Shown here: positions 5,734-43,484 of the stretch, piece after piece
Layout of the letters: every line of letters starts with the position of its first letter
How positions within the stretch are numbered: the first letter of the stretch is position 1
Origin: Rhodovastum atsumiense
GTDB taxonomy: Bacteria; Pseudomonadota; Alphaproteobacteria; Acetobacterales; Acetobacteraceae
NCBI GenBank assembly: GCA_026225115.1
Contig: JAMFSE010000063.1
Location: 1-44,074, forward strand
Direction: 5' to 3'
Length of the DNA: 44,074 bases
Program-made: the position numbers and the translations under genes
The notes under the pieces: generated by a model
Seen by the model: only the letters and a program-made list of their open reading frames with translations
Told to the model about the DNA's origin: nothing
Databases searched by the model: none

Positions 5734-6654
5734 ATGGCGAAGCGACGCATCAAACCGGCGCCGCGCGCCCGCAGACGGGTTGACCAGCTTGGCCTGCGCA
5801 CGGCGATGGCCGACCGGCTGCTGCCGACGCTGGTCGGCGCCATGAGTTTTTTGGCGGCGCTGGCGATTGCCGGCACGCTTGCCGCCGCCACGCTGGCATC
5901 GCACTGGCAGGGCGATACCGGCTCGGCGCTGACGGTGCAGGTCACCGATCCAGGCGACCCCGCCGTTTCCGGCGGCGTTACCCGGTTGCAAGCCGTCCTT
6001 TCCACACTAAAAGCCAGTCCGAATGTCAGTAACCTGCATCAACTCAGCGCCGATGAAATGAACAGCCTGCTAAAACCCTGGCTGGGCGAAGATGTGACGA
6101 AATTGAATTTGCCCGTGCCCGCGGTCATTGCCGCCAGCTGGAACCAGGCCGGCCCGCCCGATGCGCTTGCCTCGGCGCTCGGCGCCGTGGCGCCCGGAAC
6201 TTTGGCTGAAACCGGGGCCGCCTGGGCGTCCCGGGTGGCGGCGCTTACGAACAGTATTCAGGCCTCGGCGCTCTCGGTGCTGCTGATCGTGGCGCTGGTT
6301 GCGGCCGCGGTGATTTCGGTGGCCACAAGGGCGGGTCTGGCGCAGCGGCGCGAGGCGATTGAAATCGTGCACGGGCTCGGCGCGCTTGATTCCGATATTG
6401 CCGGCAGCTTCGCAATGCGGGCCACAAGGCTGGCGGCAACCGGGTCCGCCATCGGCGCGCTGATCGCACTCCCGGTGTTGCTCTGGCTGGCGCGGCTGGC
6501 CGAACCCTTCGCCGGCGTCCTGCCGCAGAGCAACCTGCCGGTCTTGCCGATGCCGTTGATGGCGTCGCTGCCCGCTTTGCCGGTCGTCGCAGCGCTGATC
6601 GGCTGGGGTACCGCGCAAATTACCGTGCGCGGCTGGCTGCGGCAGCTCGCCTGA
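5734..6654 (+). CDS. ftsX: Cell division permease-like protein FtsX
   Basis: This 306-residue inner-membrane partner of FtsE has the FtsX layout. A basic cytoplasmic N-terminus is followed by a first membrane helix near residues 30-55, a periplasmic domain of about 110 residues (55-170), and three more helices (about 175-200, 225-255 and 270-295). The ERxEI-type stretch QRREAIEIVHGLGALDSDIA lies between helices 2 and 3, as in FtsX. Sequence identity in this family is low, so the call rests on topology, this motif and direct adjacency to ftsE. Its stop overlaps the start of the next gene by one base (TGATG), implying translational coupling. Confidence 0.9.
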   Translation: MAKRRIKPAPRARRRVDQLGLRTAMADRLLPTLVGAMSFLAALAIAGTLAAATLASHWQGDTGSALTVQVTDPGDPAVSGGVTRLQAVLSTLKASPNVSNLHQLSADEMNSLLKPWLGEDVTKLNLPVPAVIAASWNQAGPPDALASALGAVAPGTLAETGAAWASRVAALTNSIQASALSVLLIVALVAAAVISVATRAGLAQRREAIEIVHGLGALDSDIAGSFAMRATRLAATGSAIGALIALPVLLWLARLAEPFAGVLPQSNLPVLPMPLMASLPALPVVAALIGWGTAQITVRGWLRQLA

Positions 6655-19355: not shown

Positions 19356-19423
19356 CCATTCGGCGCTTGCGAAAGCCGCTTCGAATGACGACTTACACAG
19401 CGGCAATCGCAGGAGCAGATCAG

Positions 19424-19897
19424 ATGACCGAGGCTTTCAAAACCACCGGCGCGGATTGGCAGAAGCGCCATCTGGAATCCTACCTGGAAACCAACGGCAA
19501 GATCGGCCATTTCGCGGATTTCACGCCCTTGGGCGGCCCGCCGGACGTGCCCTGCCTGCTGCTGGAAACCACCGGTCGCAAATCCGGCATCCAGCAGATT
19601 CTGCCGTTGATCTACGGCACGGACGGCAAAAATTTCGTGATCATCGCCTCCAAGGGCGGCGCCCCGAAACACCCCGCTTGGTTCCTCAACCTCGAATCCG
19701 ACCCCGCAGTAAAATTTCAGGTCGACGATAAAAAATACAGCGGGAAGGCGGTGTTGGCGCCCGCCGCGGACCGCCAGCGGCTGTACGACATGATGGCGAA
19801 AATCTACCCGCCGTACGTCGAATACCAGCAAAAAACCGACCGCGAAATTCCCGTCGTGTTGCTGCAGCCTGCAGCGGAAATCGATCGTTTGGGGTGA
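19424..19897 (+). CDS. Deazaflavin (F420)-dependent nitroreductase-family protein
   Basis: This 157-residue protein is of the DUF385/Ddn split-barrel family best known in mycobacteria as F420-dependent nitroreductases. Family motifs are LLETTGRKSG, PLIYGTDGKNFVIIASKGGAPKHPAWFLNL and the terminal PVVLLQPA. AGGAG at 19411-19415 is eight bases before the ATG at 19424, which fixes the start; an earlier start at 19367 lacks this. In an alphaproteobacterium the cofactor could be F420 or FMN, so activity is open. The gene is 68 bases after galM and ends near motA on the other strand. Confidence 0.8.
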   Translation: MTEAFKTTGADWQKRHLESYLETNGKIGHFADFTPLGGPPDVPCLLLETTGRKSGIQQILPLIYGTDGKNFVIIASKGGAPKHPAWFLNLESDPAVKFQVDDKKYSGKAVLAPAADRQRLYDMMAKIYPPYVEYQQKTDREIPVVLLQPAAEIDRLG

Positions 19898-19929: not shown

Positions 19930-20798
19930 TCAGCCCGGGACTTTTAGATTCTGTAGCGTTTCCTCCAGTTCCTGAAAACTGGGCATATATTGGTTTGGCA
20001 CCATTTTACGCCCGGTTTCCACGCTTACCGGCGGGGCGTTTCCGTGCAGATGTGCAACCAGCACCGCGCGAACCACTTCGAAATACTTGGCGTCCTCTTC
20101 TACCACCGCGGTCAGCCGAACTGAAAATGGTCCGACGACGCCGTAAGCCAGCAGCACGCCAAGAAAGGTTCCGGTCAATGCATCGCCGATCATTTCTCCC
20201 AGCACGGCCGGCGGCTGGCTGATATGTGCCATGGTTTTGATGACGCCCAGCACCGCCGCCACGATACCCAAAGCCGGCAATCCGTCCGCCATGTTCTGCA
20301 ATGCATGCGCGCCGTGCAGCGATTCTTTTAACGTTTTTTTCAACTCCCGCGCCATCACGTCTTCAATCTGGTGCGGATCATCGGCGTTCATTCCCACCAT
20401 CCGCAGATAGTCGCAAACCATATTGGTGGCGTATTTATTGGCGAGGATTTTCGGAAAATGCTGGAATACCGGGCTCTCGCTGGCCGTTTCGATATGCGCT
20501 CCAGCGCCATAGAGCCCTTGGTGGCAGCGAGCTTGACGAGGAAAAACAGTAGACACAGCAAGTCGACATAATCGGTCTGGTGAAACTGGCTGCCCTTGAT
20601 GATTTTTTTGAAATCACCCAGCGTATGTTTCAAATCGTGCATCGAATTGCCCGCCACCAGCACGCCGATCGCCGCACCTCCGATCGTTAGCAATTCAAAT
20701 GGCATCGACCCCATCAACGGCCCGATCGCCCCGCCGGTAACAATAAAGGTTCCGAAAACGCAGGCCAGCAAAAATACGATGCCACCAATACTCAGCAT
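19930..20798 (-). pseudogene. motA: motA, flagellar stator protein, interrupted by a one-base frameshift
   Basis: Two overlapping frames together encode a MotA proton-channel stator of about 289 residues. The first part (20798 to about 20499) reads MLSIGGIVFLLACVFG, PFELLTIGGAAIGVLVAGN and the DYVDLLCLLFFLVKLAATKGSMALE block. The second (about 20496 to 19930) reads HIETASESPVFQHFPKILANK, the NMADGLPALGIVAAVLGVIKTM membrane segment with its conserved Pro, and GPFSVRLTAVVEEDAK. The family reads LEPHIE across this join; here only two bases (20497-20498) lie between the Glu and His codons, so one base is missing. Unless it is a sequence error, translation stops early after about 100 MotA residues plus 36 unrelated ones. 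It follows motB by 13 bases; usual order is motA then motB. Confidence 0.88.
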
Positions 20799-20811: not shown

Positions 20812-21855
20812 TCAAGGGGTAGTTGAAGCGGGAGTAGTAGAAGCGGGGGAAGTGGAAGCGGGGGCAGCAGGAGCGGCAGGAGCGGCAGGAGCGGGGACAG
20901 CGGCGCCAGGCGAGATGAAGGCAGGCGTGGGACCTTTGGCTACCGTGATGGTAATACGCCGGTTCGCAGCGCCGAGCGGATCGTTTGGATGCAGCATCTG
21001 ACGGTCGGCATAGCCTGCAACCTGCGTCAATTCGGATTCCGGTAGACCGCCGCTGACCAGGATCGCGCGTGTGGCGTCGGCGCGTTCGACGGAAAGTAGC
21101 CAGTTGCTTTGCGAAGGATCGGCATAGGGCCTTGCATCCGTATAGCCGGCGATACTGATGGGATGCGCCAGTTTTGCCAGCACCGGGGCAATTTTGCTCA
21201 GGATGATCTGGGTCGCCTTGGCCGGATCGGCCGAGCCGATGGCGAACATCGGCTGGTTATGTGAATCAATGATCTGGATTTGAATGCCCTGCGGCGTGAC
21301 GGTGATCGAGATCTGGTCGGCATAGGGCTTCAGGTCTTTATCGGAATCGATCGCGGCGTGCATTTTTTGCGCGGCCGCCTGAAATGCGGCCTGCTCGGCC
21401 TTGCGCTCGGCCTGCTGCATCGCGTTGTTGAGATCATGGGTGGTGATCGCCGGCCGCCGGACCAGCGGGTTGGCGCCGCCCGGGGTCGGCACCGGGGGAT
21501 GAATGCTTTGCGGCTGGTGCTTGCCCGGCATAATCTGCACCGTGCCAAGATTAGAGGCCAGAGCGCCGCTATCGAACGGGTCGCTGCCCCCGAAGGGCTT
21601 GCCCTCTCCGGAGGCGCCGCGGTTGAGCACATTGGCCTGGCTGAAATAATCGGCAAGGCCGATCCGCTGCGCTTCCGTGGTGGCGTTGATCAGCCACATC
21701 AAAAGGAAAAAGGCCATCATTGCAGTAACGAAATCAGCATAGGCCACTTTCCAGGCCCCGCCGTGATGGCCGCCTTCGACGACCTCCTCCTTGCGGATGA
21801 CGATCGGCCGCACCGCCTTGCCCGCGCCCTTCGCCGCCTTACCCTTCGCCGCCAT
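20812..21855 (-). CDS. motB: Flagellar motor protein MotB
   Basis: This 347-residue peptidoglycan-anchored stator subunit has a basic cytoplasmic N-terminus (RPIVIRKEEVVEGGHHGGAW), then the single membrane helix with AYADFVTAMMAFFLLMWL, where Asp41 is the proton-binding residue. A plug and linker (60-170) follow, then the OmpA-like domain with IAGYTDARPYADPSQSNWLLSVERADATR. The last 35 residues are an Ala/Pro then Ser/Thr/Pro tail (ASTSPASTTP) coded by short GC-rich repeats. It lies upstream of motA on the same strand. It appears intact, but its partner is frameshifted. Confidence 0.93.
   Translation of the reverse strand: MAAKGKAAKGAGKAVRPIVIRKEEVVEGGHHGGAWKVAYADFVTAMMAFFLLMWLINATTEAQRIGLADYFSQANVLNRGASGEGKPFGGSDPFDSGALASNLGTVQIMPGKHQPQSIHPPVPTPGGANPLVRRPAITTHDLNNAMQQAERKAEQAAFQAAAQKMHAAIDSDKDLKPYADQISITVTPQGIQIQIIDSHNQPMFAIGSADPAKATQIILSKIAPVLAKLAHPISIAGYTDARPYADPSQSNWLLSVERADATRAILVSGGLPESELTQVAGYADRQMLHPNDPLGAANRRITITVAKGPTPAFISPGAAVPAPAAPAAPAAPASTSPASTTPASTTP
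20819..20892 (-). repeat. Short tandem repeats coding the MotB tail
   Basis: On the plus strand this reads as repeats of GGAGCGGCA and GAAGCGGG-type units (for example three neighbouring copies of CAGGAGCGG). They code the Ala-Pro and Ser-Thr-Pro tail of MotB. Such repeats can change length by slippage; they lie inside the frame so changes by three would be tolerated. Confidence 0.6.
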
Positions 21856-35148: not shown

Positions 35149-35187
35149 GCATTTTTGCTGAGGGCGATTCACGGTTTCGGCCGCTCA

Positions 35188-35218
35188 AGAGCATTTTCCG
35201 ATCAATCGGAAATGCTCT
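35188..35218. repeat. Palindrome 2 (alphaproteobacterial GAGCATTTTCC-type)
   Basis: Arms AGAGCATTTTCCGAT (35188-35202) and ATCGGAAATGCTCT (35205-35218) with one bulged T. This form is familiar to me as a dispersed intergenic palindrome in many alphaproteobacteria; whether it is repeated in this genome cannot be seen from one window. Confidence 0.75.
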
Positions 35219-35232
35219 AGTTTTGCTTTAGC

Positions 35233-35289
35233 GAGCAATTTCATCCGATCAGCTTGGTTCTGGCGAACCAAGCTGATCGGATATTGCTC
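35233..35289. repeat. Palindrome 3, long hairpin before fdhD end
   Basis: Inner perfect arms of 18 bases (35243-35260 and 35265-35282, starting ATCCGATCAGC) have a TGGC loop; outer arms are GAGCAAT (35233-35239) and ATTGCTC (35283-35289). The outer arms match the start of palindrome 2 (GAGCATT), which suggests the three are related modules. Confidence 0.75.
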
Positions 35290-35318
35290 TAGATGAGCGG
35301 ACCTCAACCGATCGCGCT

Positions 35319-42783: not shown

Positions 42784-43484
42784 CCTGGCATGCCGATATT
42801 CTGACGCTGTTTCCGGCGATGTTTCCGGGGCCGCTGGGCGAATCCCTGGCGGGCAAGGCGCTTGGCGCCGGGATATGGTCCCTTAAGGCGACCGATATCC
42901 GGGAATTCGGCCAAGGCGCGCATCGCGCCGTGGACGACACGCCGTTCGGCGGCGGTGCCGGCATGGTCATGCGCGCGGATGTGCTGGATGCAGCCATCGG
43001 CTCGGTTGCGGATGGGCAACGGCCGCTGGTCGTCCTCACCCCCCGCGGCGTGCCGCTCACCCAGAAGCGGGTCCAAAAGCTGGCCGCCGGCCCCGGCGTC
43101 ATCCTCCTCTGCGGCCGTTTCGAAGGCATCGACCAGCGCGTCATCGAAGCCCGCAACGCCGAGGAAATCAGCATCGGCGACTACGTGCTATCCGGCGGTG
43201 AAATCGCCGCTTTGGCGCTGCTGGACGCCGCTATCCGCCTGCTCCCCGGCGTCATGGGCACCGCCGCCAGCGCCGATGAGGAAAGTTTTTCGACCTCCCT
43301 CCTCGAATACCCGCACTACACGCGCCCCGCCACCTGGCAGGACCGCGCCGTCCCGGAAACCCTCACCTCCGGCAACCATAAAGCCATCGCCGACTGGCGC
43401 CGCCAGGCCGCCGCCGACATCACCAAAATCCGAAGACCAGACCTCTACGCCCAATACATTGCATCTGGCGCAATCGCGCCCTAA
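42780..43484 (+). CDS. trmD: tRNA (guanine37-N1)-methyltransferase
   Basis: It methylates G37 next to the anticodon, limiting frameshifting. At 234 residues it is of family length. Motifs: [16 protein letters not shown], the FGGGAGM loop, [33 protein letters not shown] (SPOUT knot) and [14 protein letters not shown]. Coupled to rimM by ATGA overlap. The end [12 protein letters not shown] is typical. It precedes rplS by 28 bases. Confidence 0.97.

Follow-up and report, generated by a model that had tools for sequence, protein, structure and literature searches.

The motA gene of Rhodovastum atsumiense is interrupted by a change of reading frame but is otherwise undamaged, and in the same genome the hook gene, flgE, is likewise split by a change of frame, an observation that is new here. 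Taken together, these two breaks probably mean either that swimming has just been lost or that the draft carries two sequence errors. On balance we regard it as somewhat probable that the sequenced population has recently lost motility. The window is the whole stretch of DNA that was analysed, 44,074 nucleotides of contig JAMFSE010000063.1; the genome to which it belongs comprises 3.67 Mb in 149 contigs and is 98.8% complete.

motA is encoded in two reading frames

On the minus strand, motA starts with an ATG at 20798 and changes frame after codon 100, at 20499; the protein picks up again at a His at 20496, in a second frame of 188 residues that ends at 19930 (Table 1). A single continuous frame is therefore absent, the change falling at 20497-20498, and an unshifted reading of the first frame meets a stop at 20388 after 136 aa in total. 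Pfam MotA_N matches the first frame and MotA_ExbB the second, both above the Pfam cut-off, while the two halves also match the TIGR03818 model (MotA1), neither reaching the cut-off for the whole protein, as is normal for part of a protein. Frames from relatives span the break in two registers in 116 query pairs, which are not independent because some of the fetched loci overlap. The lesion lies well inside the contig (20.5 of 44.1 kb) and outside any homopolymer run.

Table 1. Positions of the motility genes and neighbouring features in the window and on contigs C25 and C30 of the same genome
Feature	Position	Strand	Evidence
Convergent neighbour gene, ORF of 176 aa, also beside motA in genome G020	19367..19897	+	ORF list
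motA, remaining 188 codons and stop, another frame (MotA_ExbB part)	19930..20496	-	Pfam MotA_ExbB; pN/pS
Continuation of the first motA frame out of register, up to its stop	20388..20498	-	Translation
motA lesion, two bases	20497..20498	-	Whole codon in 80 of 80 relatives (best 80 of 424)
motA, first 100 codons (N-terminal part)	20499..20798	-	Pfam MotA_N; pN/pS
motB, 347 aa, open	20812..21855	-	Pfam MotB_plug and OmpA; 13 bases upstream of motA start
Second motA (motA2), 294 aa, open	C25 47767-48651 (L035:7768-8652)	-	70% identical to the 3' half of motA
flgE (hook gene), split in two frames	C30 ~59279-60603 (in L168/L169)	-	Proteins of relatives

Relatives of MotA were collected by scanning one genome per species, which yielded 424 encoding stretches, and the best 80 of these were used. 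All 80 carry a whole codon at the site of the lesion and none is shifted. The initial annotation had placed a missing base between the frames beginning at 20798 and 20496 and had proposed this comparison; the frames, the Pfam matches and the codon of the relatives all confirm its claim. It had also given the family sequence at this point as LEPHIE, which is only partly accurate, as the best 80 of 424 encode P (48), A (27), T (2), S (2) or N (1) at the lesion codon. In two of the loci a contig end comes close: the alignment of L102 starts at residue 77, near the end of its contig, such that its first third cannot be judged, and the motA frame of L073 extends to the end of its contig.

Among the 36 genomes that carry the same genus label (G001-G036), a close MotA (83%) is present in G020 only, with A at the lesion codon. 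Weak MotA matches (best E 9.9e-8) occur in 27 of the 36 and none in 8, so the label may lump unrelated genomes. The start of motB is present both at the end of G020:C274 (11728-11877) and on G020:C101; these two contigs may adjoin or be strain variants.

Both halves of motA remain under constraint

When compared with its unbroken counterparts in G020 and L040, motA has a pN/pS of 0.18-0.21 in the part preceding the lesion and of 0.16-0.19 in the part that follows. Values of about 0.2 on both sides are what would be expected of a recent lesion, and the relaxed constraint that a decaying gene would have is not seen; constraint on motA extends up to the present. Moreover, the two halves keep 102 of 103 near-invariant columns, as defined by 79 relatives, and depart at one, and the end branch of the operon copy is short (0.083, in a tree whose bootstrap is not settled). 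motA was kept in working order until very recently, or works still, and the lesion is either young or not real.

Another explanation would be recoding, in which the ribosome shifts frame at the motA site and gives full-length MotA. In its favour, both halves are conserved, and the two frames overlap and are both open over more than 150 bases (20388-20556). However, no slippery heptamer is found at the site by reading, the RNA fold is unremarkable (z -0.23, with 81 of 200 shuffled sequences folding as well or better) and all of the best 80 of 424 relatives do without a shift. The combination of slippery site, stimulatory structure and conservation in relatives that defines a programmed frameshift was thus not found at motA, and we consider recoding very improbable.

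flgE is broken while other flagellar genes are open

On contig C30, the proteins of G062, G063 and G067 (440, 471 and 443 aa, respectively) align to flgE in two frames that meet at ~59545-59557, with a net loss of one base. The Flg_bbr_C domain falls in a frame of 113 aa, in contrast to the 440, 471 and 443 aa of the three relatives, of which G063 and G067 are Acidiphilium-type genomes. Like that of motA, the flgE lesion is inside its contig (~59.6 of 99.8 kb) and not in a homopolymer run. In G020, which is 77% complete, the Flg_bbr_C test showed no flgE. Three further Flg_bbr_C genes, on C9 and C50, are open, with alignments free of stops.

By family search, C30 has open frames for FliF, FliG, FliN, FlbD, FlhA, FlgK, flagellin, FlbT, FlaF, a FlgD-like protein and a FlgL-like protein, several of these matches scoring below the strict NCBIfam cut-offs. 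Open frames elsewhere encode FlgI (C65), FlhB, FliR and FliQ (C14) and FliP (C9). In all, two of the ~22 flagellar genes examined are broken (motA and flgE) and 20 are open, a count that does not include FliM, FliI, FliE, FlgB, FlgA, FlgH, FliL or the chemotaxis genes by name. Also on C30, a short element at ~45989-46136 (L168 ~5990-6137) matches both strands of G063 and G067, at dozens of places at the least, and is therefore probably a palindromic dispersed repeat.

Two frameshifts are judged convincing in the stretches examined

Two screens partly cover ~583 kb of the genome. In the protein screen, frames from 221 loci of relatives cover 90,585 of 582,888 bases of the genome's own sequence, and the breaks in motA (116 pairs) and flgE (3 pairs) were recovered along with five candidates supported by a single query each. 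The candidate on C30 proved on alignment to be a neighbour-gene artefact, and that in L170 was read as two neighbouring genes; the three remaining ones (one in L173 and two in L243 that overlap on opposite strands) have weak pieces or contain an internal stop. A C30 candidate at ~39.2 kb likewise proved to be an artefact.

The composition screen is blind to a frame break that runs straight into a stop. It classed 499,891 bases as coding and flagged 92 same-strand switches; at nine of these, motA included, both frames are open over more than 20 bases. Twenty-five of the 92 switches were read by eye, without family search: motA and flgE were each judged to be a single protein divided between two frames, and the remaining 23 to be ordinary neighbours rather than frameshifts, as at 43430 in the window, where the two genes are presumably trmD and rplS. 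We judge motA and flgE to be the sole convincing frameshifts in the ~583 kb that the two screens partly cover, and a generally error-rich assembly is not seen in the stretches examined.

Both breaks affect motility genes, which is suggestive only, since flagellar clusters were deliberately over-represented in the fetched sample; as motA was moreover the starting point, flgE alone is independent evidence of clustering. Short inverted repeats were considered as a cause of the deletions, with a stem of 5 at motA and of 4 at flgE; stems of at least these lengths occur at 802 and 2059 of 5000 random sites, respectively, so there is no signal.

The motB-motA order is typical of this group

The motB gene beside motA is open, as had been claimed, and gives the genome's single MotB_plug match (E<=0.001). 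Its position ahead of motA had been described as reversed. This is correct with respect to other alphaproteobacterial families (13 loci, L007-L019), in which motB lies downstream of motA in 11 and has no match within the stretch examined in two, but there is nothing odd about it among relatives: for 76 of the best 80 of 424, a script found a same-strand motB directly upstream of motA, and a downstream motB match was found in 0 of the 80. The four exceptions are L118, where the motB match runs into the start of motA and was missed for lying outside the script's limit, and three loci whose contigs start less than 240 bases before motA. We therefore take the order to be a trait of this group and reject it as a sign of oddity. 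On the other side of motA, ~19424-19887 of the window matches DNA of G020:C101 (71%). Further along the window, ~35180-35297 is a short dispersed repeat with at least 21 matching places in G062 (76-86%).

A diverged second motA lies on another contig

The genome has four PF01618 matches, in the window and on C25, C95 and C120. A search for a further motA, which the initial annotation had suggested, yields one: the diverged copy on C25, near which a neighbourhood search found no MotB. It departs from 16 of the 103 near-invariant columns of the 79 relatives, versus one for operon motA. In the tree, the window, C25 and G020 copies form a three-row group (100/98), in which the C25 end branch is 0.99 long versus 0.083 for the operon copy; the fork joining these two copies is weak (90/23), and so long a branch can be wrongly placed. 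The composition of C25 is the genome's own, with a GC content of 0.622 versus 0.616 and a tetranucleotide distance of 0.08 to the window versus 0.15-0.27 to G020, G062, G063 and G067. A second MotA (E<=1e-30) occurs in three of 44 genomes of relatives (44 of the 80 loci); in L265, the sole one of the three whose neighbourhood was read, a MotB-like ORF lies directly upstream. Solved MotA structures gave weak matches to the C25 copy (nine sequences, lowest E 1.1e-9) and were set aside, and in our literature search we recognised nothing on a second MotA in this group or on this genome.

An open copy with native composition, together with the single MotB_plug match in the genome, might suggest a stator hand-over, in which operon motA is dead and the C25 MotA and the single MotB drive a changed motor. 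This is hard to reconcile with the altered near-invariant columns and long branch of the C25 copy and with its lack of an adjoining motB, and the break in flgE means that no flagellum would be expected anyway; we consider it highly unlikely. We give equally little credence to a history in which motA was duplicated in the lineage and the C25 copy diverged fast and now takes the single MotB, the operon copy having only just died.

Discussion

The simplest reading of these results would be that motility was lost recently and that the remaining gene set is still present. An ordinary motB-motA stator operon of an Acidiphilium relative would very recently have lost one base from motA, which as written would give a fragment of 136 residues that ends in a wrong tail and lacks the MotA_ExbB part. 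The pore helices sit in the MotA_ExbB part, and the stator of this operon should therefore not form; with flgE broken likewise, no working hook or flagellum is expected. We infer that the two lesions are real and lie in the same cells, and that these cells do not swim.

The whole codon in every one of the best 80 of 424 relatives, the split flgE, the restriction of convincing frameshifts to motility genes, and the placement of both lesions inside contigs and outside homopolymers argue for a recent loss of motility. One published account counts motility genes as belonging to the variable portion of Acidiphilium genomes (PMC7677001). Against a loss, consensus errors could also produce two breaks in ~0.5 Mb of coding sequence, and the halves of motA are without any decay, as an error would also leave them. 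An error in the consensus or assembly, with motA and flgE working in the cells and the draft having dropped one base at each, is a serious possibility, albeit one we hold to be less probable: the draft is in 149 contigs, 102 of 103 near-invariant motA columns are kept and the other flagellar genes examined are open, while the lack of any general excess of frame breaks in the stretches examined, the non-homopolymer sites within contigs and the occurrence of the second break in another motility gene are not what an error would predict. Of the three explanations initially offered for the motA break, frameshifted decoding is without support, and between loss and error the second frameshift, in flgE, leans towards loss.

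Either a real loss or sequence errors would be an event of an ordinary kind. If real, the two frame breaks, with no other decay in the stator gene, would show the very beginning of motility loss in a free-living relative of acidophiles; if an error, they are a warning against calling a draft genome non-motile because a gene is broken. Annotation of this group should benefit from knowledge of its motB-motA order and of the second, diverged MotA.

The locus resembles the TIGR03818-type MotA with MotB of Acidiphilium, in that both halves match, the operon is the same with its motB-motA order, the near-invariant residues are kept (102 of 103) and MotB is encoded beside motA; it also shares its neighbours with the G020 locus. 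Unlike the TIGR03818 MotA, its frame is broken after codon 100. Motility is reportedly lost in Campylobacter jejuni under experimental evolution, and the few frame-breaking lesions in a gene set that is otherwise present are similar to the flagellar pseudogenes of newly non-motile bacteria, although here, in contrast to such bacteria, both lesions and the phenotype are predicted from draft sequence.
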